Shown one piece after another: positions 45,174-59,077 of a stretch of DNA of 64,000 bases. The notes below the pieces were generated by a model that was given only the letters and a program-made list of their open reading frames with translations, did not search any database and was not told the DNA's origin. The DNA lies in assembly GCF_014048465.1 (NCBI RefSeq), contig NZ_PDLY01000001.1:558001-622000 (forward strand). Reading direction: 5' to 3'. The DNA comes from Bombella mellum. Lineage in GTDB: Bacteria; Pseudomonadota; Alphaproteobacteria; Acetobacterales; Acetobacteraceae. Within the stretch, counting starts at the first letter, position 1. The number at the start of each line of letters is the position of its first letter. Position numbers and translations under genes: made by a program.

Positions 45174-45301
45174 TGATTTTCCTAGAAAACTGCCGTTTTT
45201 GACCGTTAGTGGCGGCTGCTGCGTCGTTCGCCATCGTCCATGAATGACCGTAAAAACGTGCGAGTCGTCATGAGAATTGGCACAAAACTGACACAGCGTT
45301 T

Positions 45302-45795: not shown

Positions 45796-46547
45796 GCCCG
45801 TTGCCTTTTATTCTCAAGGCCAAGGTCCGGCTGACCATTTAGCACTGCATCATTGTGCAATTTGATGATATGCCGCCCAATGCCGTTCATATAGGGGCGG
45901 GCCAGTTCGGCAGGGTAAAGCCATGTGCCCGTGCGAGCGCAGCGATGGCAGATAATACCCTGCTGCTTGGCAAGGGCAGATAATGCATTGCCGATTTTTC
46001 GGCGTGGTCCGTTGCGGCCTTTCTGGGTCAAACCGTATTCCTCGCACCATTCCTTGGCTGTTTTATCCGTTACAGCTGCCGTGCCAGCTTGATGCGTTAC
46101 GACCAGATTGGTGATCCGACTTTCCATCTCGGCCAGCTCTTCACGCATCTGGGCACGGGAGATGCTCTTTATCATCCCGCCCAAGACCTTGCGGGTATCG
46201 GCAGAGAGGGAGGTCCCGGCAATGGCATACCCGCCCGTCTTGCGGATGGTGGGGATGACCTCGGAGGTCAGCCATTTCTTGAACCGCTTAGCTTCCGGTT
46301 TTCGGCTTGTGAGGACGAGGGACCACAGGCCGGACTCATTGATGATGGTCCTGTCAGCGTTCAGGTTTCCACTGTTGTTAATAACCACAGTGGATTTTTC
46401 ATCATCATCGAGCCGTTTTGCAGCTGTTGGGGTATGAGAGATATCCAGAACAGCGCAAACATCCGCCAGCATCCACCACGGTTCATTATTCTGCTCGATG
46501 ACCCGAACTTCGTGCCCCTCAAAAGAGAAGGGAATGATGTTGCTCAT
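45792..46547 (-). CDS. Phage antirepressor with N-terminal BRO domain
   Basis: 251 residues. The BRO-N domain covers about residues 1-110 (GHEVRVIEQNNEPWWMLADV, LTSRKPEAKRFKKWLTSEVI, ending IRKTGGY). A helical linker leads to a C-terminal part with Cys-x2-Cys (ICHRCARTG), perhaps a DNA- or metal-binding module. Antirepressors of this type bind and inactivate phage repressors. The start overlaps the stop of the 86-residue gene by ATGA. It lies oddly beside the spanins at the prophage edge. Confidence 0.85.
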   Translation of the reverse strand: MSNIIPFSFEGHEVRVIEQNNEPWWMLADVCAVLDISHTPTAAKRLDDDEKSTVVINNSGNLNADRTIINESGLWSLVLTSRKPEAKRFKKWLTSEVIPTIRKTGGYAIAGTSLSADTRKVLGGMIKSISRAQMREELAEMESRITNLVVTHQAGTAAVTDKTAKEWCEEYGLTQKGRNGPRRKIGNALSALAKQQGIICHRCARTGTWLYPAELARPYMNGIGRHIIKLHNDAVLNGQPDLGLENKRQRA

Positions 46548-46804
46548 GCTGCTTCTCCCGCTGCCAGTGCGATCTCGGATACGAAGTCCGCATATTCGTT
46601 GTTCTGGTGGGCGATCATCATGTTTATCAGCCCGGATAGGGCGATGCCTCTATTTTCTCGGTCAGGAATGGCGTCATCCACGACAGCAAGAGTGCCGATC
46701 AGATGGTTGAGGTTCTGCTGCATCAGGCGGCATGTGGAGATCAGCCGCTCAAGGCGGGCCTCTGGTGTGGTGGCCGTAAAGGCGTTAGATTTGGTTTCAG
46801 CCAT
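46544..46804 (-). CDS. Small phage protein, paralog A (partner of BRO antirepressor)
   Basis: 86 residues of unknown function, helical and without signal or membrane segment. It is clearly paralogous to the gene at 54745-55002: both share NAFTA-T-PEARLERL-STCR, a central VVDDAIPDREN-like stretch and the ending YADFVSEI-x-x-AAGEAA. Each copy is coupled by ATGA to a different antirepressor gene. The context suggests a regulatory accessory to antirepression; that is inference. Confidence 0.8.
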   Translation of the reverse strand: MAETKSNAFTATTPEARLERLISTCRLMQQNLNHLIGTLAVVDDAIPDRENRGIALSGLINMMIAHQNNEYADFVSEIALAAGEAA

Positions 46805-48724: not shown

Positions 48725-51235
48725 TCATCGCCCATAGGGGCTCCATGTCGGCGATACGAGGAATCCCTGCCCCTGACTGCGCTGGACGAGCTTTTCATAG
48801 CGGGCCGTGTAGCCGGGATTTATCATGTCCTGTAGGCGGTAGATCACGCCATATTTCAGGGCGGCATTGATGCCCGGGATGTTGCCGAACGGTATCTGCC
48901 CGGAGGCAAAACGGACTAGATCGGCCAGATAGGTGCGGGCCTTCTCGGCATCGGGGCTGCCGACCAGTTCATCACGGGTGGCGGTGAATATCCCGGCGAG
49001 TTTTGCCATGTCTGCAATGGTCGGGCCTGCCAGTGTTTCAAGCGCACTGTTTCCGATTCGGTTCTGCTGGCCGAAGAGGAAGTCCCCATAGATGCCAGCC
49101 CCGCCACCCTGGGCCATGGCCGACATCCATGTGCGGACATCGCCTGCATCCCGTGGCTCTTTCCCGGCCAGAATGGCCTTGGCCTGCATGGCGACGTAGC
49201 CCAGCACGGTCGTGGCGGCGATCATGTGGATGATGCCGGGCAGGTCCAGCCCGTTGCGCTGCACCTCACGCTGATAGAAGCGGCGGATATGTGAGGCCGG
49301 GAAGCTCTTGAACTGGAGCATCAGCCGTGCGGCCTGTCCGAGCAGCGGGTTCACGTCATCCAGCCGGTTGCTGAACGCACGGAATTTTGCCTGCGTGCGG
49401 ACATCCGGTTCCGTCATTCCCTCCCGTGTCTGGTCGGTGATGTAGGCATAGAGCTTTCTGGTCAGGCTGTCCCGCACGTCATCGGCCGTCTGGCCTTTTT
49501 CGATGAGGGGAGCCACGGCCCCGTCAGACAGGCGGCCCATCTCGCTGGGCAGGATATGGTCTTCTCCAGCGGCTGTCCGCACGGCCTGCCGCATCACGTC
49601 CCATTCCGGCCGGGTGATGCCGAAGCGTTGCAGGCTGGCCCGCAGCTTTCCATCAAGGGCCTCATAGGACAGACCGGCATTACGCCCCAGATTGTGGGAG
49701 AGCATCATGCCGACGCCCTCGGACAGGCTGTCCGTCCAGTATTGCAGGCCGTTGATGCGGTAGAATTTGTTGATGAGGTCGCTCATCTTTCCCAGCGGCG
49801 CATCATTGGCAGAGAAACGGCTCATCACGGATCCAAGATGTCCTTGAAGCCCCACGCCCAGCAGCCGGGCGATCTCTTTGCGCTCTGACGGGTTTTTGCT
49901 GCTCAGGCCCGGCGCAAGGGCTTTCAGGCTGTTCCAGTAGCTTTCCAGCAGCGGGACGCCATTGTGTCTCAGCACGGCGGCATTGATGGCCAGATCGGGC
50001 AGGGAGGAGATCATCACCCCGCCCAGTTTCGTGATCTGGTTCCACGCATGGGCGTAGGCCCCGATGGTTTCCACCGTCTTGTTGGCCGGCTGTCTGCCCC
50101 GGCCTGTCACGATGTCCAGCAGGGCACTGCGCTCCAGCCTGCGGAGCCTGTCCACCATTCTGGCATCAGCCCTCTCACGGGCGGCCTGCACGCTTTCCTC
50201 GATCATGCTGCGGAACATGTTCTCAGGGTTCGTGCCCAGATCGCCCATCACGGCAGCGTTGCGTGCCCCGCTGATGAGGCCCTTGAAGATGCTGTCCACC
50301 ACATGACCCTGGCCGAACTTCCTGTTATAGGCCAGCCAGCCGTCAGCATCTTTGAAGTGCAGAACACGGTTCTGGCTGACCTTCTTGGCAAGGTTGGATG
50401 TGCCCCTGAAGCCGGAAAGCCAGTCCCGCCCGTTGGCATTGTCATGCTCACCGGTGGAGAGGTTCAGCCAGACATTGCGGAGGAAATCTTCCTTTGACTG
50501 CCTGGCGGGCATCATCTCGAAGGTACGGTCATCCAGCAGGGGAAGGATGGTATCCCGCCAGTTCTGATAGGCCCGGTCCGACCCGTCGCCCCGTATCTTC
50601 CACATGTCGTGGCTCTGGCGGGTGACGTAGTGGTCCACCTTGCCAATCCATGCGCCCTGCCTGTTCTGCATCAGACGCACGGTGTCCTGATAGCCGGACA
50701 GGATGCGGGCGGCCTCGGCAGCCAGCCTGTTGCCTGTTGGTGCCCCGGATTTCGGGTCATCAAGCCGCCACATCTCACGGGCCACATCGGCATCAAACTG
50801 CTCATCACGCTTCAGCAGTGCCCTGAAGACGCCTGCCTTGTCCAGATCGTGCATGAGAGGACCGAGAAGCTGGGCAGTGCGGGCGTGGCTGCTGGCATCC
50901 ACGGAGAGGGCAGCACCATGCTCCCCGGTCTGCTTCCCGGCAAGAATGCCTTCAAGGGAGGCCACCTCATCACCGGGCACGATGCGGCGGCGCAGGGCGG
51001 CACGCACGATGAGGTTCTTCTTGCGGGCATTGGCCTCGATGATGGCGGCCAGACGTTCCTCATCGGCCATGCGGGCACCGGCCTTCTCCAGTGCCTCCCG
51101 TGGGGACAGGCCTTGTTTCATGTAGCGTCCGGCTTCCTTCTCCAGCCGACCGAACATCTCGTCAAGCTCTGCCTTGGACATTTCACGCCCGGCGGCTTTC
51201 TCGGCTTCACTGTAGCAGGGGTTCTCGTGGGTCAT
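48725..51235 (-). CDS. Large internal virion / DNA-ejection protein
   Basis: 836 residues, mostly helical, no signal peptide. The N-terminus is charged (AEKAAGREMSKAELDEMFGR). The C-terminal half has small-residue-rich stretches typical of ejection proteins that form a trans-envelope channel (GIIHMIAATTVLGYVAMQAK, then GGGAGIYGDFLFGQQNRIG). Its place between the other large virion protein (ATGA overlap) and lysis genes matches gp15/gp16-like ejection proteins of short-tailed phages. No enzyme motif recognised. Confidence 0.7.
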   Translation of the reverse strand: MTHENPCYSEAEKAAGREMSKAELDEMFGRLEKEAGRYMKQGLSPREALEKAGARMADEERLAAIIEANARKKNLIVRAALRRRIVPGDEVASLEGILAGKQTGEHGAALSVDASSHARTAQLLGPLMHDLDKAGVFRALLKRDEQFDADVAREMWRLDDPKSGAPTGNRLAAEAARILSGYQDTVRLMQNRQGAWIGKVDHYVTRQSHDMWKIRGDGSDRAYQNWRDTILPLLDDRTFEMMPARQSKEDFLRNVWLNLSTGEHDNANGRDWLSGFRGTSNLAKKVSQNRVLHFKDADGWLAYNRKFGQGHVVDSIFKGLISGARNAAVMGDLGTNPENMFRSMIEESVQAARERADARMVDRLRRLERSALLDIVTGRGRQPANKTVETIGAYAHAWNQITKLGGVMISSLPDLAINAAVLRHNGVPLLESYWNSLKALAPGLSSKNPSERKEIARLLGVGLQGHLGSVMSRFSANDAPLGKMSDLINKFYRINGLQYWTDSLSEGVGMMLSHNLGRNAGLSYEALDGKLRASLQRFGITRPEWDVMRQAVRTAAGEDHILPSEMGRLSDGAVAPLIEKGQTADDVRDSLTRKLYAYITDQTREGMTEPDVRTQAKFRAFSNRLDDVNPLLGQAARLMLQFKSFPASHIRRFYQREVQRNGLDLPGIIHMIAATTVLGYVAMQAKAILAGKEPRDAGDVRTWMSAMAQGGGAGIYGDFLFGQQNRIGNSALETLAGPTIADMAKLAGIFTATRDELVGSPDAEKARTYLADLVRFASGQIPFGNIPGINAALKYGVIYRLQDMINPGYTARYEKLVQRSQGQGFLVSPTWSPYGR

Positions 51236-53709
51236 GGGGCTTTCCTTGTCAGGCAGGCGGCGGCGGAGGCGACGGCATCGGCATTACCGTCAGAGAGATC
51301 CTTTTCACGATGGATCTCTGCCAGCTCTTCGGGACTGATCTGGTCGCCCAGGGCGGCAAGCTGCCGGTCGATCTGGTCGGAACAGGCCTGCGCTTCGGTG
51401 ATGGCTTGACTTTTCGGGGCAGTATTTCCATTGTCAGAGGAGCTGCTGTGGCGACTACTGGTATACACGCCATCACTGCCGGATTTTTCAGGTGATGGCG
51501 GGGGAAGGTCGGCACTCTTTTCGGCAGGGTGCGACAGGTTGGGGCGGCTTCCGTCCCATAGCAGCTTTCTTTTTTCCAGATATTTCGTGTCGAAAGCACT
51601 GGATGTACCGACACGGTAATAGCCATCCTCCTTCAAGAGATGGAGGACAGCCGTGTCATGTTTGTCTTTCCTGCCTCTGGCATCGCCCATATGGACGGAG
51701 AAATACGAACCAGTGTCGTGTCCGGCTTTTGCTTCCTCCTGCCTGATCTGGTTCATGTGCTGGAAGATGTGACGGATGTAGGAATCAATGTCTGCAAAAC
51801 CATGCTCCCTTATTTCGTCACCATGACGGGCGGAAATGTGAAGCCTTCCATGCCCTCCACCTATGTCACGCCCGTTCTTTGTCAGTTTGGGAGCATGTTC
51901 TCCATCGCCGAGGATGACAGGCCAGTCAGGCACGCCATTGATCCCGGAAGGCATCCGCCCGACCATGACCGGGTTACGGCCTGCTGCTGAGAGATCCAGA
52001 TGCTCAATACCGCTGGTCGGGAGTGGGGAAACATCCTGACCCTGTTCCGGGCTGGGGGCTGTTTCCCTCTGGGCAGCAAGCCCGGCACGGTTCTGCGTGA
52101 CCTCATGATCTTCATGACCATGCAGGTTACGCATGATGGCTTCTGCCGCATCCTGCTGGATGGCATCAAGCCGCTGCCTTGCGTTCTGATAGGCCTCTTC
52201 CACATGGCCCTGCCAGCTGGCGTCGTGGCCTTTTCCCCGTTCTGCCTCGATGAGGCGCAGGGCCTGCTCCACGGCGTCTTCCGGGCTGTCCTTCTTCAGG
52301 ATGGACCCAGCAAGATCGTAAAGGTCCAGCCCTTCAAGGCCTGAATCAAGATGCTGGGCATAGACGCCCAGACGCTGGCGGGTGAGGGCATGGAGAAGCT
52401 CCTGCGTGGCCCCGATGCGCTCCATGTGGGTGGCACGGCCATGGTCCAGCATGTCCGCATACCGCTCCCATGTGGCATGGCCGGATACCCGCATGGCATC
52501 CTCCATGGCGGCATCTGGGTGCAGCCCGGACAGGATGGCCTCCGTGGCATGGGCATGCTCTTCCGGCGTGAGGGTGATGTCTGCTGCCCGTGCAGCTTCA
52601 TCGGCATCGTCGGCAGCCTGTGGCAGCTTCCCGGTCGGCATGGCAGGCTGGGGCGCAGCAGCATCTGGCTGCTCCGGCTCATCATCGGGACGCTCATACA
52701 GGGCCGCCTCATCCAGCGTATCAGCATGGCTCTGCCGGAGCTGGGAGAGGTCATCAGCAACCCTGTCCCGCAGGGGAGCCTGAGACACCGTTTCATCAGG
52801 CTCCGCACCATGCCCGGCCATGGTACGGTCAAGCTCGTCTCTGGCGTTCTGGACCTCATGAATGGTCAGCAGGCTCTCGGCATTGCCGGGACTGTCGCTG
52901 GCCATGGAAGCGAGACCATCGGCCAGAACCTGCCCCCTGGCACTGGTTCCGGCCCGTTCGAGACGTCGGCCAAAGGCATGGCCCAGACCATGCAGGCCAC
53001 CCCCCATGATGCTGCCAAAGCCGATGTCCCGGAGGGCCTGACCCATGCTCCAGTCATTGTGCTCATCACGGTCAAGATACATGTTGAGCGGCTCGAGGGC
53101 CGCCATGCCGATGGCTCCCTGGCTGGCACCCTGTACCACACGTCCCGGCAGGCTGCCGGAGAGGGCCGCCCCGGCACGGCGGTTCAGCCCTTCGGCACTG
53201 AGCAGCCCGTCCGCCACACGCTCCATGCCCAATCCCTCGGCACGGGCGGCGGCACTGCCAAGGGCGAGACCGATGCGCTCCTCCCCAAGGCCGGGGATCA
53301 GGGCGGCGGCATAGTTGATGGGGTCCAGAAAAGCAGGGGCAGCCCCGGCAACGGTATTCAGGGTGCCGCTGATGATGCCGTCAGGCCCGTTGCGGATGGT
53401 GTTCTGCCGGATGAGATCAGCCTGCTTCTCATCATTGAGGGTCTGGGCAAGTGCAGAAGAAACAGGCCTGTCGAAGTTCAGAACACCCCTGATGCCATAG
53501 CGGGCATTGGCATCTTCCGGGCTTAGGGTATCGCCTTCGGTGCTTTTCGTCTCATGGCGCAGCCAGTCACCGATGCGGACGACCGGCATGTCATTGATGC
53601 CCGCCATGACGGATGCACCAAGCGACTGTTCAAGGGACGACTGCTGCCCCGCCAGTCCTTCATCCTGAACGCTCCTGAGCGTGTTCAGTCCGCCTGAAAA
53701 TAATGACAT
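51232..53709 (-). CDS. Large virion protein with C-terminal nuclease-like (polyvalent) domain
   Basis: 825 residues. The N-terminal ~240 residues have hydrophobic, Gly/Ala-rich ejection-protein features (GTLNTVAGAAPAFLDPINYA, then ASQGAIGMAALEPLNMYLD). The middle is acidic and disordered (DDEPEQPDAAAPQPAMPTG). Residues about 605-725 form a compact domain: GGGHGRLHISARHGDEIREH, HMNQIRQEEA, then LHLLKEDGYYRVGTSSAFD and KRKLLWDG. The H-x-x-x-RH, Lys and Arg pattern recalls the Barnase-EndoU-ColicinE5/D-RelE-like nucleases found in phage polyvalent proteins. The assignment is by eye. Confidence 0.65.
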   Translation of the reverse strand: MSLFSGGLNTLRSVQDEGLAGQQSSLEQSLGASVMAGINDMPVVRIGDWLRHETKSTEGDTLSPEDANARYGIRGVLNFDRPVSSALAQTLNDEKQADLIRQNTIRNGPDGIISGTLNTVAGAAPAFLDPINYAAALIPGLGEERIGLALGSAAARAEGLGMERVADGLLSAEGLNRRAGAALSGSLPGRVVQGASQGAIGMAALEPLNMYLDRDEHNDWSMGQALRDIGFGSIMGGGLHGLGHAFGRRLERAGTSARGQVLADGLASMASDSPGNAESLLTIHEVQNARDELDRTMAGHGAEPDETVSQAPLRDRVADDLSQLRQSHADTLDEAALYERPDDEPEQPDAAAPQPAMPTGKLPQAADDADEAARAADITLTPEEHAHATEAILSGLHPDAAMEDAMRVSGHATWERYADMLDHGRATHMERIGATQELLHALTRQRLGVYAQHLDSGLEGLDLYDLAGSILKKDSPEDAVEQALRLIEAERGKGHDASWQGHVEEAYQNARQRLDAIQQDAAEAIMRNLHGHEDHEVTQNRAGLAAQRETAPSPEQGQDVSPLPTSGIEHLDLSAAGRNPVMVGRMPSGINGVPDWPVILGDGEHAPKLTKNGRDIGGGHGRLHISARHGDEIREHGFADIDSYIRHIFQHMNQIRQEEAKAGHDTGSYFSVHMGDARGRKDKHDTAVLHLLKEDGYYRVGTSSAFDTKYLEKRKLLWDGSRPNLSHPAEKSADLPPPSPEKSGSDGVYTSSRHSSSSDNGNTAPKSQAITEAQACSDQIDRQLAALGDQISPEELAEIHREKDLSDGNADAVASAAACLTRKAP

Positions 53710-53740: not shown

Positions 53741-53759
53741 GTGTTTGTAATTCTGGTGT
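53741..53759 (-). repeat. 19-bp phage repeat, copy 2 (possible promoter element)
   Basis: Exact second copy of GTGTTTGTAATTCTGGTGT, 32 bp upstream of the minus-strand ATG at 53709. Flanking sequence differs from copy 1, so the match is not part of a longer duplication. Confidence 0.75.
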
Positions 53760-53819
53760 AAGTTGATTAGAATTTTTTAGGATCGTGCTTCCAGAAAGAG
53801 AGAACTCGGGAGGAAGAAT

Positions 53820-54419
53820 ATGTGTGATATCACTCAGGAAATCAAAGAACAGATAAATAATCTAGAAAGATATGTAGCGATTAGGTCTCGTCTTTTGAGG
53901 ATTTATTATTGTATAGAAAGAATTTCTAATATTTTAGATGATATTGGTGAGTCTTTTGATAAATGTAAATATGAAGAACTCCAAGAGTATTTTTCATTAA
54001 ATGATGCTTTTATTATATCGTATGGGGCTATTTTCAATAGTAGCCTTGCTGCTAAGCATGTTAGCTTTGATGATAAAATATTTGATGATGATATTGAATT
54101 AAAAAATATACATAAAGATATAATGCAACAGCGGAATAAGATTGTTGCTCATCATGATTTTAGAGATAAGGAAGAAGTAACAGGCAGTGGTTTTTATATA
54201 AAAAGTCTTGTAGAATGTAAAGTTGATGAAAATACTGTCAAGCTAACAACCAGTATGGCATTTGATAAAAATTCCATTTTTGTCACCAAGGAGAGAGTAA
54301 GAAAATATAAAGAAATCTATAATAAAATTATGGCGTATAGGGATAAAAAAGAAAGAAAGATATTGGATAAGATAGAAAAAATTACGAATAAGAAGGTGAT
54401 AGTTAATGGTGATATTTAA
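53820..54419 (+). CDS. AT-rich cargo gene encoding a HEPN-like protein
   Basis: 199 residues, mostly helical and rich in Lys, Ile and Asp. By eye its DNA is roughly 30% GC, against about 60% around it, and it runs opposite to the flanking late genes; both are signs of a late-acquired 'moron'. QQRNKIVAHHDF near residues 105-116 matches the HEPN ribonuclease pattern R-x4-6-H (R-N-K-I-V-A-H), following the helix IELKNIHKDIM. A preceding helical region (LLRIYYCIERISNILDDIGE) fits a HEPN four-helix bundle, perhaps of the AbiU2-like type. A role in abortive infection or superinfection exclusion is inference. Confidence 0.65.
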   Translation: MCDITQEIKEQINNLERYVAIRSRLLRIYYCIERISNILDDIGESFDKCKYEELQEYFSLNDAFIISYGAIFNSSLAAKHVSFDDKIFDDDIELKNIHKDIMQQRNKIVAHHDFRDKEEVTGSGFYIKSLVECKVDENTVKLTTSMAFDKNSIFVTKERVRKYKEIYNKIMAYRDKKERKILDKIEKITNKKVIVNGDI

Positions 54420-54480
54420 TTAATATTGAATTTATAAATCTGAATGCCCATGTCAGTTCTTGTCACAGTAATGGTTAACG

Positions 54481-54547
54481 GTGGGGCTTCTTGATAGGGG
54501 AATAGAATTCAATCTGTTCCTGCATAGAGATAAGCCCCCCGATTTTT
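54481..54547 (+). terminator. Possible terminator of the HEPN-like gene
   Basis: GGGGCTT (54483) can pair with AAGCCCC (54532) across a 42-nt loop that holds an inner GGAA / TTCC pair, followed by GATTTTT. The long loop makes this uncertain. Confidence 0.4.
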
Positions 54548-54556
54548 ATCTAGTGC

Positions 54557-54582
54557 AGAAAAGGGCACCCGCCAAGGTGCCC
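54557..54582 (-). terminator. Terminator immediately after the CRISPR-like unit
   Basis: On the minus strand GGGCACC and GGTGCCC pair around a 6-nt loop and are followed by TTTT. The upstream arm overlaps the degenerate 3' end of the last repeat, so a minus-strand transcript through the repeats would stop right after them. Confidence 0.8.
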
Positions 54583-54670
54583 CAAAATCCCCGCTAGGGC
54601 GGGGAACACGGAAACTGTGCAATTTTGCATAGTTTCAATTTCGGGCCATCCCCACGTGGGCGGGGAACAC
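54581..54670 (-). CRISPR. Two-repeat, one-spacer type I-E-like mini-array without cas genes
   Basis: Read on the minus strand, a 29-nt repeat (54670-54642) begins GTGTTCCCCGCCCACGTGGG and ends GATGGCCCG, like type I-E repeats such as GTGTTCCCCGC...GCGGGGATAAACCG of E. coli. A 32-nt spacer (54641-54610) and a second repeat (54609-54581, starting GTGTTCCCCGCCCTAGCGGG) follow. The 61-bp period equals 29+32 of type I-E. The second repeat has a perfect 7-bp stem (TCCCCGC / GCGGGGA) and a degenerate last six bases. The spacer is a self-complementary hairpin (GAAACTGTGCAA / TTGCATAGTTTC, one G-T pair), unlike a normal spacer. No cas gene is in the window. Confidence 0.7.
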
Positions 54671-54699
54671 TCTTCTGGTCTGGTCCTATTTCCTCCAAC

Positions 54700-54735
54700 T
54701 GGGAAAGAAGGGCCTGTGCAGAAATGCACAGGCCC
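54700..54735 (-). terminator. Strong hairpin after paralog B
   Basis: 11-bp stem GGGCCTGTGCA / TGCACAGGCCC with a 4-nt loop, followed on the minus strand by TTCTTT. The broken T-run suggests partial termination, which would let some transcripts continue into the CRISPR-like unit. Confidence 0.65.
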
Positions 54736-54744
54736 CCAGAATGG

Positions 54745-55002
54745 TCAGGCCGCTTCCCCCGCTGCCCGTCTGATTTCAGAGACGAAATCGCTGTATTCTT
54801 CGTTCTGGTGACTGATGAGCAGGCGTACGAGACCCGCCAGAGGAACCCCGGCGTTTTCTCTGTCGGGAATGCTGTCTTCCACGACAGAGAGGGCGGATAT
54901 CAGGTTGTCCCAGTTCTGCTGCACGTAGCGGCAGGTGGAAAGAAGCCGCTCAAGACGAGCCTCTGGCGTGGAGGCTGTGAAGGCGTTGGTTGGGCTGTTC
55001 AT
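54745..55002 (-). CDS. Small phage protein, paralog B (partner of Rha antirepressor)
   Basis: 85 residues from ATG 55002, with GGGAGAAG upstream and an ATGA overlap with the Rha-like stop. It aligns along its whole length with paralog A at 46544-46804 (NAFTASTPEARLERLLSTCR, VVEDSIPDREN, ending YSDFVSEIRRAAGEAA). Gene order relative to the antirepressor is reversed compared with paralog A. Function unknown. Confidence 0.8.
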   Translation of the reverse strand: MNSPTNAFTASTPEARLERLLSTCRYVQQNWDNLISALSVVEDSIPDRENAGVPLAGLVRLLISHQNEEYSDFVSEIRRAAGEAA

Positions 55003-55781
55003 GCTGCTTCTCCCTTGCCAGAGAGAATATCCAGAACGCTCGGTTTCCATTTGAGCTGCTGCTGGCTGCCTGTGCCATGCTTCCGGGTTGTGTCGAACAT
55101 GCGTCCGTAGGCTTTCCCGGCTTCCGTCATCGTCCAGTTGCTTCCGGTGGCGGAACCCGGTGTGCTGGTTTGCAGACCAGCTTCCGCTAGCATCTGATTG
55201 ACCCGACGGCCAGACAGGCCCCCCAGTTTTTCACCCAGTTCAGTTGGCGTTAGGTAGTTGTCATTGTCCGGAGCGGCGAGAGAGGTCATCCCCATCATCT
55301 CCACCGGGCTTTCTCCGCACTTGTTCCGGCAGTAACGGTCGCCGTAGATCACGGCCTGATTTTTGTCGTAGCCCAGATTGAGTGCAATCTTGTAGCCAGT
55401 GTTGAAGGTGGACAGCACTGCCGGACGGCGTTTGCGAGCCGGTGTCGTGGTGCGGGTATGCGCCGCCTCTGTTTCCAGTTCCAGCCAACGATCAACAATT
55501 TTCAGTCGTAGGTCAGCCCGGTATCCTGCAATTAAGGTAATGGTCAGGTTTTTGGGAAGATTGTAGCATTTCCGCTGCTCCCCCTTGGCATCTATGTACG
55601 TCCCAGCCAACCGGCTCAGATTTGAGCCGGTTAGATTGCAGTCGGTTGCCATTTTCTCCACGTCACGGACAACGTTCTTGTGCTGCTTCCCCGTCAGCTC
55701 CGCAATCTCACGGCTGGACATGGTGAGAGGCATCGCTGTGATCGTGCTGGATTTTGACACATTATTGGTGCTATTACTCAT
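54999..55781 (-). CDS. Rha-family phage regulatory protein / antirepressor
   Basis: 260 residues. The N-terminal Rha domain reads TMSSREIAELTGKQHKNVVR, then DVEKMATDCNLTGSNLS and YNLPKNLTITLIAGYRADLR. The C-terminal part has a helix-turn-helix-like YLTPTELGEKLGGLSGRRVN and ends KWKPSVLDILSGKGEAA. Rha proteins are phage regulators, often serving as antirepressors. It lies downstream of an Arc-like gene, like ant behind arc in P22 immI. An opposite-strand terminator in the gap covers its ribosome-binding site. Confidence 0.82.
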   Translation of the reverse strand: MSNSTNNVSKSSTITAMPLTMSSREIAELTGKQHKNVVRDVEKMATDCNLTGSNLSRLAGTYIDAKGEQRKCYNLPKNLTITLIAGYRADLRLKIVDRWLELETEAAHTRTTTPARKRRPAVLSTFNTGYKIALNLGYDKNQAVIYGDRYCRNKCGESPVEMMGMTSLAAPDNDNYLTPTELGEKLGGLSGRRVNQMLAEAGLQTSTPGSATGSNWTMTEAGKAYGRMFDTTRKHGTGSQQQLKWKPSVLDILSGKGEAA

Positions 55782-55787
55782 CCCAGA

Positions 55788-55855
55788 GTGTTCCTTTCGA
55801 GGTTCATTGTTCAGAGGCGTTGGGATTGGCTTGCAGGCTTTCCAACGCCTTTTTT
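55788..55855 (+). ncRNA. Candidate sar-like antisense RNA over the Arc-like / Rha junction
   Basis: A strong plus-strand terminator (AGGCGTTGG at 55815 pairing with CCAACGCCT at 55842, extendable by two pairs, then six T to 55855) lies in the gap between two minus-strand genes, where no plus-strand gene exists. A perfect -35 TTGACA is at 55754, but the -10 is poor, so the 5' end near 55788 is a guess. The RNA would be about 68 nt and would cover the Rha ribosome site (complement of AAAGGAAC). P22 sar RNA has this position and size relative to ant. Confidence 0.5.
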
Positions 55856-55867
55856 GTTATTTGCTGT

Positions 55868-56029
55868 TCAGTTCTCATCATTGTTCCTGTTGGCTTGATC
55901 GTAGATCTCCCGCAGAAGCAAGTTTAGCTCAGCCGTGAATGTCCGCCTTGCATCAAAAGCCCGCTTTCTGATCCATTCATGCACATCAGCATCAATGCGT
56001 GTGCTGGTTGGGCGTGGTGAATTTCCCAT
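55868..56029 (-). CDS. Arc-like ribbon-helix-helix repressor (53 residues)
   Basis: Short gene from ATG 56029, preceded by GGAGAA. The protein starts MGNSPRPTSTRIDADVHEWI and continues with RKRAFDARRT and FTAELNLLLREIYDQA: a beta strand followed by two helices, as in Arc/Mnt repressors. It sits directly upstream of the Rha-like antirepressor on the same strand and divergent from another RHH gene. It likely represses its own operon, as Arc does in P22. Confidence 0.78.
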   Translation of the reverse strand: MGNSPRPTSTRIDADVHEWIRKRAFDARRTFTAELNLLLREIYDQANRNNDEN

Positions 56030-56106
56030 AATTTCTCCAAATGATTACTTGCACATCTTGTGAATTACGTTTTTGGCATATTAGATTCTTGGAGGTCAAG
56101 ACCGAT

Positions 56107-56135
56107 TTGCAATTATTTTTATGTGCCTATATCAT
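56107..56135 (+). promoter_or_regulatory. Probable promoter of the 180-residue RHH gene with TTGCA half-sites
   Basis: TTGCAA (56107-56112) and TATCAT (56130-56135) with 17-bp spacing, 33 bp ahead of ATG 56168. TTGCA or its near copies recur in the 138-bp divergent gap (near 56050, 56107, 56140 and 56153), suggesting repressor half-sites. Confidence 0.55.
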
Positions 56136-56167
56136 CTTTGCACACACAAAATTGCAGGAGAGGTTAA

Positions 56168-56710
56168 ATGGCGGCAGAACGTAAGAAAAAGCGGACGCCT
56201 AAGACGGAGTCTTTGACTATTAGGTTGGATCCTAAAATGCGTTTTGCTTTAGATTTTGTTGCTCGCATGAAGGGACAGACAATTACTAAAGTAATTGAAA
56301 CGGCTGTAATGGAGAAAGCAGACAATGAGTTTGTTATTCATGAAACTTTTGATTGGAATGACGGAGAGGTTAAAGAGAAAAGAACATGGAAGGATTACTG
56401 GAATGTAAATGAAGCCGTCCGTTTTATAAATTTAGCAAGAGCAAAAGAAACAAATCCAACTTTTGAGGAAGAGTTTTGCCTTCAATTTATGGAAGATCAT
56501 AATAATTATTTCTTTAAAGGGGGAGATGGCTCCCCGGACAAAGAAAAACTTGATGTTCTTTGGCCTCTGATGCCAGAATTTTTGGCTGTTTGGGAAGAAA
56601 CAAAGGCAACAGATCGCGAGAAAGTAAAAATTATGATGGACAAGGCATTGATTAAAGCAGGGCTAATGCATGAAAATTTTGGTACTTGTGGGGAAGAACT
56701 TCCCTTCTAG
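56168..56710 (+). CDS. RHH-domain phage protein with unknown C-terminal part
   Basis: 180 residues; GGAGAGG precedes the ATG. Residues 12-50 (TESLTIRLDPKMRFALDFVA, then KGQTITKVIETAVMEK) form a ribbon-helix-helix. The remainder (FDWNDGEVKEKRTWKDYWNV, LWPLMPEFLAVWEETKATD) is acidic and Trp-rich, without a recognised domain. It is more AT-rich than the virion genes and runs opposite to them. It is divergent from the Arc-like gene, so the two may cross-regulate. A 16-codon signal-peptide-like stub follows at 56721-56771. Confidence 0.7.
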   Translation: MAAERKKKRTPKTESLTIRLDPKMRFALDFVARMKGQTITKVIETAVMEKADNEFVIHETFDWNDGEVKEKRTWKDYWNVNEAVRFINLARAKETNPTFEEEFCLQFMEDHNNYFFKGGDGSPDKEKLDVLWPLMPEFLAVWEETKATDREKVKIMMDKALIKAGLMHENFGTCGEELPF

Positions 56711-56791
56711 GAACCGCCCCATGAAAAATCTCCTTCTCATCGCCGCCGCCGTGCTGGGGTCTGTGAGGTAGGCTGAAACAGTTGGTGCGTC

Positions 56792-59077
56792 TCAGCTGCC
56801 CAGCTCCACATCCACGCTGATGCTGGTGACGGTCACGGGGAGCGGCTGGTCGGTCTGGAGGATGAAGCTGCCCTTCTGGGTCCAGTTTGGTGTTGGTATC
56901 CGCATGGTCAGGCCGGAGATGAGCGCAGGGCCGGTGTCTTTCTTCTGGTAGGGATTGGGTGCTGACGGCCCGGCGGCGGCACCCTGACCGTCCAGCCCGT
57001 GGAATGTCTTTCCATCGTCTGTGGAGACGCTCAGGCCGGAGCTGTTGTAGAGCGAGGCATAGACCTTGCTGACCCGCTTGCGCCGGGCGAACTGTGGAGG
57101 GTTTCCGAGATCCAGCGGCAGGGTGACGGCCCGTGCATGGATGGGCAGCCCGACCGTGACCACGCTGCCGGGCCGTGGCAGGGTGAGGGTGCCGTCATTC
57201 CCCACCGTCAGCCCCGTGAAGCCCCGCCCGTCAATGCAGGCGGACACGGTTGCTCCTGCCAGATGCCCCAGCCCGGAGACGGTGCCGGTTTCCTTCCCCT
57301 CATAGCGCAGGCCGCAGTCCACGAACCATGAGCGGGTGATGTCGTCATTCTCCATCCCCAGCTGGCGGGACTGGATGCGCTCGATGGTGTAGCTCTGCCG
57401 CCCGGCAAGGCTGCGCTTCACCACCACATAAGGCGTATCCTCGATGGCCCCGTAGCCATTCTCCTCCGGCACGACCGCAACGGACTGGAAGGCCCCGCCC
57501 TCCGTCCTGTGCTGGTGCCATGCCATGACGTTCTGTTCCTTCAGGTAGGTCATGCCGAGCATCGTGCCGTCAGACCGCACGGCCCAGATCAGGTTGAAGG
57601 GGAACTGGGCGAAGGACCAGTCGGAGATCGTGTAGCCATAGAAGAGATGGTCAGCCAGGACGGACAGGTCATTGCCCTGATAGATCTGTGCGTACCAGTC
57701 ATATTGCAGGTCACGGATATGGCTGCCCTTGTTCTCGATGAACAGCACGTCAGTATTGATGGGCAGGGGCTGCACGTCCGAGCTGCCCACGAACATCTGT
57801 GGTGTGGCCGTGAAGTTGCTGGGCGTGATGGGCGTGCCGGTCTGGCCGCCGGAGATCTTCCAGATGCCCGTTCCGGTGAAGGCCAGAAGGTCGGTCATCG
57901 GCACCAGATGCTTGATGGTGTTGACCTGCTGGCTGGCGATGGTGGCCGTTATGGCATCATCGGAGACGACCGGCGTGTGGATGTCGAAATTGGTGTAGTT
58001 GGCAGAGCGGGACATCCAGACGGTCTGGGGATAGGCGAGAGATCCGGCGAAGACACGCCTCTGCTGGAAATAGGTGACGGCAGAGGGATTGTTGCCACCA
58101 TCAAAAGGGTTCCGGTGGGCGGGCGGCCCGTTCTCGATATCGGGAGCATAGTTCACGTCATCAAGGATGGTGGATGACGTGTTGCCGATCAGTCCCCACT
58201 GCCCGGCGAAACGGCGATAGACGTTGTAATAGTCCGCTCCCGTCACGGCAGGCCATGAGAGCGTGTTGTAGTTCCCGTAGTTCGTGTAATAGCCGATGTT
58301 GTAGTTGGTCACGAACCGCCCGACCTCCACGGGAACCTGTGACGTGACGGTGCTGGTTTTGCCAGTCACAGGGTCAGTGACGGTATTGGTCTGGGTTGTC
58401 ATCTCCGTCTGGGAGGGGGCCAGAGTGGCGTTGCTCTCCGTGTTCCTCTCATTGGAGACGGAGGTGACGGCATATTCATATGTGACCCTGGGTACGCTGG
58501 TTGCCGTGCCTGCATTGCCAGCATTTCCTTCCACGGCAGAGGCTACGAGTGCAGAAGGGGCCTCTATCCCGGCACTGTAGGAGATCACCTCCAGCGTCCA
58601 GTCCAGCTCTCCGTGGCGGGAGAGGTTCATGGCCGGATAGCCGGAATGGGTGAGGGTCATCACGTCGGCAGACTGTGCATGGCGCAGCCAGAAGGCATCC
58701 CCGATGCTGTAAGGCGTTGCCAGCTCGTAGGGGCTGCCATCGGCATTGGCCAGATAGGCCCCGTTGCTGATGAAGCGGACATAGCGGTCGCCGAACTCCA
58801 GCACATAGGACTGGCTGTTGTTGTAGATGAAGGCGATCAGCTTCGGTGGTGGCCCGGAGGCATCGGCCCTGGACGTTCCGACATACTGCGTGCCGGGGCG
58901 GTTTGAGATGCCGCCCTGCACATGCACGAAGAAATTGGTCAGCTCGGCGGCACCGGAATGCCATTTCTCCATGTCGGCCCTGTATCCGACCAGGGGAGCC
59001 ATCACGCCCCCGCTGAAGGAGCTGAACCATGTGAGGCCGACCTGCGGGCCGGAAGGGGGCTGGGCCATCAGCTGCAT
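56792..59077 (-). CDS. Tail nozzle / tail tubular protein B
   Basis: 761 residues of the podovirus tail-tube distal part (gp12-like). The N-terminus has the family pattern SGGVMAPLVGYRADMEKWHS, FFVHVQGGISNRPGTQYVG and AFIYNNSQSYVLEFGDRYVR. A central segment (ADYYNVYRRFAGQWGLIGNT) and SYTIERIQSRQLG follow. The stop of the tail-spike C-terminal frame overlaps its start region by 10 bp; ATG 59068 (MAQPPSG) is an alternative start. Confidence 0.85.
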   Translation of the reverse strand: MQLMAQPPSGPQVGLTWFSSFSGGVMAPLVGYRADMEKWHSGAAELTNFFVHVQGGISNRPGTQYVGTSRADASGPPPKLIAFIYNNSQSYVLEFGDRYVRFISNGAYLANADGSPYELATPYSIGDAFWLRHAQSADVMTLTHSGYPAMNLSRHGELDWTLEVISYSAGIEAPSALVASAVEGNAGNAGTATSVPRVTYEYAVTSVSNERNTESNATLAPSQTEMTTQTNTVTDPVTGKTSTVTSQVPVEVGRFVTNYNIGYYTNYGNYNTLSWPAVTGADYYNVYRRFAGQWGLIGNTSSTILDDVNYAPDIENGPPAHRNPFDGGNNPSAVTYFQQRRVFAGSLAYPQTVWMSRSANYTNFDIHTPVVSDDAITATIASQQVNTIKHLVPMTDLLAFTGTGIWKISGGQTGTPITPSNFTATPQMFVGSSDVQPLPINTDVLFIENKGSHIRDLQYDWYAQIYQGNDLSVLADHLFYGYTISDWSFAQFPFNLIWAVRSDGTMLGMTYLKEQNVMAWHQHRTEGGAFQSVAVVPEENGYGAIEDTPYVVVKRSLAGRQSYTIERIQSRQLGMENDDITRSWFVDCGLRYEGKETGTVSGLGHLAGATVSACIDGRGFTGLTVGNDGTLTLPRPGSVVTVGLPIHARAVTLPLDLGNPPQFARRKRVSKVYASLYNSSGLSVSTDDGKTFHGLDGQGAAAGPSAPNPYQKKDTGPALISGLTMRIPTPNWTQKGSFILQTDQPLPVTVTSISVDVELGS

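Follow-up and report, generated by a model that had tools for sequence, protein, structure and literature searches.

What does an AT-rich gene, read against the virion genes on both sides of it, contribute to a prophage, and does the RNKIVAH motif of its product mark a HEPN ribonuclease? The gene lies in the 64-kb stretch of DNA analysed here (hereafter the window; G000:C1:558001-622000, from a genome, G000, of 2.07 Mb), where the following features belong directly to it.

53820..54419, + strand: HEPN-like protein gene, an intact ORF of 199 aa, ATG to TAA
53808..53814, + strand: ribosome-binding site GGGAGGA, read from the sequence
53745..53773, + strand: weak promoter-like site 5′ of the gene, 9/12 matches
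54132..54152, + strand: RNKIVAH codons (residues 105-111), candidate catalytic R-x5-H, conserved in the alignment

The ORF has a GC content of 27.8%, against 60.2% for the 64-kb window, and the 600-bp windows with the lowest GC in the 64 kb fall on it; the sharp drop in composition described in the original prediction is thereby confirmed, as is the reversed orientation relative to the late genes. The ORF is on the + strand, and the large virion genes that flank it (48725-51235, 51232-53709, and 56792-59077, assigned by PHROG matches) are on the − strand. One small gene of the same insertion, at 56168-56710, is likewise on the + strand. No promoter stands out in a scan of the gene region: three promoter-like sites were observed versus 3.0 expected in shuffles, and the site at 53745..53773 is therefore not significant. 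The gene is also included, at 100% identity, in a 44,511-base IMG/VR viral contig, which by arithmetic places the predicted prophage start near window position 45300.

A prophage slot with changing cargo

The gene is part of an inserted module, the neighborhood of which is organised as follows (numbers beginning with L denote related loci).

53761..56789, no strand: inserted module, absent in L058, L065, L069, and L071, with the junction unbroken there
51232..53709, − strand: left flank of the slot, 825-aa phage protein (phrog_3003, 2.6e-21)
56792..59077, − strand: right flank of the slot, tail protein (phrog_376, 3.4e-176)
53771..54654, no strand: segment replaced in L059, where homology ends at 53770 and resumes at 54655
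54745..55050, − strand: 101-aa protein (p101), which adjoins an array or remnant in L059, L064, and L067 too
54999..55781, − strand: Rha/Ant-type antirepressor (PF09669, 4.5e-16; PHROG anti-repressor, 1.3e-25)
55868..56029, − strand: 53-aa ORF, conserved in L059 and L067
56168..56710, + strand: 180-aa protein with a weak Arc/HicB-like N-terminus (PHROG 0.027-0.065 only), 99% identical in L059

In L058, window positions 53760 and 56790 match adjacent bases (5950/5949), and the same junction, with a 6-7 bp overlap, is found in L065, L069, and L071. The unbroken junctions in these four prophages thus define 53761-56789 as a clean 3,029-bp insertion between the tail gene and the 825-aa gene. The segment replaced in L059 comprises the HEPN-like gene and most of the mini-array described below, its substitute being an unrelated reversed 222-aa gene, and the L059 insertion has a different antirepressor from that of the window. 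At the same place, L067 contains an addiction-type pair (dnstrm_HI1420 antidote, 2.2e-20; the Gp49 match is below the cut-off). Among ten distinct prophages, the slot is empty in four (L058, L065, L069, L071) and holds an antirepressor, p101, and cargo in three (window, L059, L067), with one each for L062 (a reversed 157-aa gene), L070 (a 690-aa protein and an HTH partner), and L060 (a different gene order). This tally covers prophages in which the upstream side was viewed; it counts L061 with L067 and L057, which ends before the slot, with L070 as the same prophages, includes an L070 stretch that shows no tail gene, and leaves out a second partial match in G046 (C1:644138-645284). The slot comparison indicates that the cargo changes and tends to run opposite to the late genes, in agreement with the prediction that the ORF is a prophage cargo gene. 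L065 has an empty slot, yet carries elsewhere in the prophage an antirepressor 97% identical to that of the window.

Three other cargo genes were observed. The 222-aa protein in place of the HEPN-like gene (L059:5057-5725, − strand) is itself encoded by AT-rich DNA (31.5% GC) and, under the thresholds applied, matches nothing in Pfam, PADLOC, PHROGs, or PDB sequences. The reversed 690-aa multi-domain protein at L070:2683-4755 (− strand), situated before the 825-aa homologue, has an adenylate-kinase-like C-terminus and an N-terminus that may be PIN-like, and its HTH partner (L070:4730-5554, − strand) has a HigA-like N-terminus. In addition, a second p101-like ORF (67% identity) lies near the left prophage end, at window 46571-46789.

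The location bears on when the gene would act. Being phage-borne and sharing its insertion with an antirepressor gene, it could encode an RNase for early lytic takeover of the host rather than a defence expressed in the lysogen. We consider this quite unlikely, as the gene is oriented against the late genes and a toxin-antitoxin pair is among the alternative cargo found in the slot.

The motif, predicted fold, and family of the protein

A bare R-x4-6-H in the window protein is no evidence by itself, because half of shuffled proteins have one (49% of 200,000 shuffled versions of the 199-aa protein). In the same number of shuffles, R[NDH]-x3-5-H occurred in 10%, and two patterns picked post hoc, RN-x3-AH and RNK-x2-AH, in 0.05% and 0.006%, respectively. 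The weight of the motif evidence rests on family conservation and not on pattern occurrence. All 12 aligned family members share R105, N106, A110, and H111; H98 and D113 are each conserved in 11, and position 107 is K in nine, at an overall identity to the window protein of 15-28%. The 12-row alignment is free of duplicates and near-copies (L003-L008, L013-L016), although L017, L020, and L021 are mutually 88-92% alike. Nine of the 11 relatives were found by whole-protein or profile search and not by the motif pattern alone; L010-L015, L075, and L076 were retrieved by patterns containing the motif, and L010-L012, but not L075 and L076, coincide with loci from the whole-protein search. RNKIVAH has the form typical of the HEPN superfamily (R-x4-6-H with a polar residue after R), and the motif of this unnamed subfamily is mostly RNK-x2-AH-x-D.

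Since some HEPN families are described as inactive (PMC3710099), the protein could have the HEPN fold and a non-catalytic, binding or regulatory role. Such a role is distinctly improbable: R, N, and H of the motif do not vary among the 12 members, which is unexpected without selection for catalysis and so counts against it.

Two AlphaFold models of the single chain (monomers, built from six-row alignments) contain long helices at residues 2-42 (or 4-42), 51-72, 92-113 (or 117), and 157-189, with RNKIVAH at the end of helix 3 in both and a low-confidence beta hairpin following it. Mean pLDDT is 72 in both models, and residues 111-120 are at 42-44, so that H111 borders the confident part. The suggested check for a four-helix bundle thus gave four long predicted helices, with RNKIVAH (residues 105-111 of what had been called a helical 199-residue protein) in the third. 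At a pLDDT of 72, this four-helix arrangement with the motif ending helix 3 is that expected of a HEPN protein; the survey in PMC3710099 likewise assigns the motif this position.

Structural comparison by VIA-align, in which rows within 1 Z are tied, placed HEPN toxins in rows 1-4 for model 1 (Z 10.7, 9.9, 9.4, and 9.3, over 122-137 residues at rmsd 3.3-3.8; first unrelated row, 8.9) and HEPN chains in rows 1-7 for model 2 (Z 10.5-8.1), of which rows 5-7 do not separate from the first unrelated row (8.0). For helical bundles, a Z below about 13 may reflect a common arrangement, and because such bundles can reach these values without kinship, the ranking is support, not proof. Foldseek with the window protein model returned no match at E ≤ 0.001 and none below 0.1, and a BFVD fold search returned nothing at E ≤ 0.001.

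These results also bear on whether the protein is instead a helical, AT-rich orphan with a chance motif. Chance alone would give half of such proteins an R-x4-6-H, and no Foldseek E falls below 0.1; however, RN-x3-AH is conserved at 15-28% overall identity and both models rank HEPN chains first, which makes this alternative very improbable indeed. With the motif conserved in the family, the predicted fold class HEPN-like, and HEPN toxins at the top of the structural lists, the protein is probably a HEPN protein, as had been proposed.

The best structural matches are toxins of HEPN-MNT pairs (PDB 7ae6, 7ae8, 6m6w, 5yep). Such matches, together with the antidote-type toxin-antitoxin pair that L067 has in the same slot, would fit the HEPN protein being an addiction toxin that mainly keeps the prophage, under an unseen antitoxin or antisense control, and not a defence. 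However, no second ORF of at least 50 aa lies beside the gene on the same strand up to the mini-array (smaller ORFs were inspected by eye), and no nucleotidyltransferase was noticed in the insertion. Addiction is accordingly rather unlikely. The window gene further differs from HEPN-MNT systems in that no MNT gene was noticed beside it and in its motif spacing, which is 5 versus the 4 that R102/H107 in the 7ae titles imply for the toxins.

Membership in AbiU2, the family named for the suggested profile search, is not supported. The Pfam model HEPN_AbiU2 (PF18734) gave only a sub-threshold match to residues 94-120 (15.1 bits versus a cut-off of 26.8), and AbiU2 matches at E ≤ 0.1 were obtained for three of ten family members (best E, 0.017). 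AbiU2 members above the cut-off occur in four of 150 genomes, and one of them (L082) has the same form of motif, RNKFLAH, the region which the weak Pfam match to the window protein also spans. Comparison with four true AbiU2 members by hhalign, using very shallow profiles, gave probabilities of 0.4% and 2.6%, and the stretch aligned with the RNKFLAH-bearing member was, with profiles of that depth, the motif only. Because the AbiU2 score is below the cut-off and the profile comparison gave nothing significant, the protein is called HEPN-like, of an unnamed subfamily, and not AbiU2.

Other family models add little. The protein has no match in PHROG or NCBIfam, and its PADLOC matches are weak and scattered. 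A PADLOC match to type IV Cas11 (14.8 bits, residues 135-173) was found in one of ten members only and is taken as chance; PDC-M14B matches were found in two of ten (best E, 0.015). Matches to DUF4785 and Med3 are below the cut-off. Sequence searches of solved structures gave nothing credible.

The window protein detected six other genomes among 395 in the order, and a four-row profile detected three others among 397 in the family and four others among 398 in the phylum; within the genus, the gene is present in one of 11 genomes, that of the window. Searches of 50,697 phage records with the window protein and with two family members found no relatives, IMG/VR yielded the window's own prophage only (window protein or four-row profile) or nothing (query A5), and genome contigs searched with the single window protein yielded none. 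A plasmid search gave one weak match with the window protein (E 0.4) and none with L003. Relatives from Acetobacter and Gluconobacter are on plasmids (six records of 72,556), with RelE-type toxin pairs (RelBE or RelE-type) within 5 kb on the two plasmids viewed, and further relatives are on two more viral contigs. The nearest relative, L010 (uncultured Neokomagataea; 32% identity to the window protein), lies among resolvases and near an AriA-like ATPase (best PADLOC, 2.8e-34) and an AriB-like DUF4435 protein (5.4e-15); by annotation these two would have the make-up of PARIS systems, the pairing being our own reading. An 80-aa ORF at L010:7310-7552 (− strand) has a weak AbiU2-type match (E 0.0043, below the cut-off) and is perhaps a HEPN fragment.

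Type I-E arrays in the insertion and in related phage

The CRISPR-like unit noted beside the gene proved to be real, being a type I-E repeat-spacer-repeat in which two 29-nt repeats recur with a 61-bp period.

54671..54694, − strand: leader-like 24 nt, compared with phage-borne and host leaders
54642..54670, − strand: repeat 1 of the mini-array, GTGTTCCCCGCCCACGTGGGGATGGCCCG, compared with host repeats
54610..54641, − strand: 32-nt spacer between the repeats
54581..54609, − strand: repeat 2, GTGTTCCCCGCCCTAGCGGGGATTTTGGG, 29 nt, 61-bp period
54559..54584, − strand: terminator-like hairpin and TTTT after repeat 2, identified by eye

With two host-like repeats at the period of the host arrays (61), the unit has the build of a virus-borne mini-array. 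The 24-nt leader-like segment is 17-23/24 identical to sequence upstream of five other phage-borne repeats versus only 8-10/24 to the two host leaders. The terminator-like hairpin recurs after phage-borne repeats in L063, L064 (two places), L072, and L066, and is not among the terminators listed by a pattern scan. Apart from the weak Cas11 match mentioned above, the scanned module proteins gave no cas matches. The finding of a HEPN-like gene and a genuine mini-array in one swapped insertion upholds the suggestion of a small defence or conflict island.

The spacer at 54610-54641 is nearly an inverted repeat (AAACT..GCAAAATTGC..AGTTT, by eye), and the 141-nt array unit folds 4.2 sd better than shuffles. 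No target of the spacer was found in its own genome (24-nt core, ≤3 mismatches) or in the other 149 of the 150 family genomes (28-nt core, ≤3 mismatches), nor was an exact 20-mer found in IMG/VR.

The host has at least part of the machinery that such an array would need. Its cas3, cse1, cas6e, and cas1 genes, of type I-E, were found on another contig than the prophage, with ORFs present at the expected places of the other cas subunits. Contig C7 holds a cas-adjacent array of 13 repeats, and C6 has 45 repeat-pattern matches, 44 of which form a regular array with 43 spacers. This genome shows the pattern described for Bombella (PMC12282179), in which the canonical type I-E arrays differ from the orphan ones in their loops, and the host is on that ground probably Bombella or a close relative; phage-borne arrays are mentioned neither in the accessible text of that paper nor in the titles and abstract openings surveyed for the genus. 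An anti-CRISPR role deduced from host self-targeting was considered and rejected: the longest exact prophage match of the C6 spacers is 15 nt, the C7 spacers gave no prophage match at E ≤ 0.05, and ungapped matches of the 55 host spacers (one of which is counted twice) over 16 loci reach 24/32 at most.

Such arrays are found on a larger scale in a phage on contig G035:C21, from another genome of the genus, which has genes for a terminase, a portal protein, a tail sheath, and an antirepressor. Three type I-E arrays, all cas-less, lie between genes in different parts of this phage (L063:8629-8718, L064:1687-2081, L064:4535-5050). Six spacers directly follow its antirepressor-p101 pair, eight lie elsewhere, and one follows the portal gene in a one-spacer array of the same build as the window unit. 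Five of the 15 spacers match related prophages at 26-31/32, preceded by AAA, AAG, ATG, AAG, and ATG; AAG and ATG are typical type I-E PAMs. Two of these five best matches are in the window, one at 46540 (29/32, ATG in front, at the edge of the p101-like ORF at 46571-46789) and one in p101 at 54829-54854 (27/32). Against the 16 loci used for this comparison, the best of the 55 host spacers scored 24 and the best of 160 shuffles 23, all short of 26/32, and the remaining ten G035:C21 spacers have best matches of only 20-22. The loci, which do not include the G035:C21 contig, were gathered largely by similarity to the window region, a choice that favors antirepressor and p101 matches; the controls faced the same loci. 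One spacer, A2_8, matches its own phage at 29/32 and is preceded there by CGG, a self-match for which a rival-targeting reading must account by the missing PAM.

A spacer of the host orphan array (G000:C6:78567-81703) matches the G035:C21 phage at L063:1876-1904 in 28/29 nt, so the host lineage probably met that phage type. Lone type I-E-like repeats with the same terminator-like hairpin were also seen at L064:15155, L072:4710, and L066:5463, and are candidate RNA anti-CRISPRs or array remnants.

Viral mini-arrays that target related viruses have already been described (PMC6858448; review, PMC11656645). The arrays found here resemble them in that the window unit is a cas-less one-spacer array in a host with Cas proteins of the same subtype and in that spacers of the related phage match other phages of the group. 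They differ in having repeats that, for the window type, are near-copies of the host repeats and not identical, a phage-specific leader-like and terminator-like flank, and up to eight spacers per array in one phage. Solitary repeats that inhibit CRISPR (Racr), as described in PMC10651486, are similar in that the repeat mimic lies between prophage genes and the host has the same CRISPR subtype; unlike these, the window has a full repeat-spacer-repeat with a 32-nt spacer, and the lone repeats of L064, L066, and L072 fit better. A pure Racr reading of the window unit was rejected, given the full spacer and the handle variant ATGGCCCG, which precedes the L063-unit spacer that matches another prophage at 31/32. 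The unit may still be a candidate for a Racr role.

A proposed role in phage exclusion

We consider it fairly likely that the gene is exchangeable cargo of a temperate phage and encodes a HEPN ribonuclease, from a subfamily without a name, that acts to abort rival phages. The interpretation offered in the original prediction is, as a whole, partly supported. The resident prophage would express the gene as a separate unit opposed to the late genes; some trigger supplied by an incoming phage would activate a putative HEPN dimer, in which R105 and H111 would cut RNA; and the infected cell would stop growing, so that the rival phage fails. The one-spacer array may add sequence-specific exclusion as a second layer, with its guide loaded into the host type I-E Cascade, and the two layers may cooperate.

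One known system of similar outline is Tha, a tail-activated anti-phage HEPN RNase of a Staphylococcus prophage with the motif R265NSIMH270 (PMC11087260). Both are single prophage-encoded HEPN proteins with an R-N motif in prophages with mutually opposed transcription. Tha, compared here by its description, differs in its length of 301 aa, its N-terminal part, and its R-x4-H spacing, and its gene is part of the cI operon and is accompanied by an antisense inhibitor gene, of which no counterpart was identified here. For bee-gut prophages, the term "HEPN" does not occur in the main text of PMC10259446.

A broader proposal, which we regard as unlikely, is that temperate phages of the genus share a mobile two-layer exclusion cassette composed of the antirepressor, p101, a phage leader and array using the host Cascade, and a swappable effector, with HEPN as a backup triggered by CRISPR failure. 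In such a cassette, a swappable abortive effector (HEPN, toxin-antitoxin, or other) would act once the guided layer had been escaped or blocked.

Overall, a putative HEPN subfamily without a name is now placed in a precisely bounded prophage cargo slot, the natural empty and swapped versions of which serve as controls. The neighboring repeats are phage-carried type I-E arrays, some spacers of which match related prophages, including that of the window; phage-versus-phage use of a bacterial type I CRISPR system thus becomes testable in a bee-associated or similar acetic-acid bacterium.
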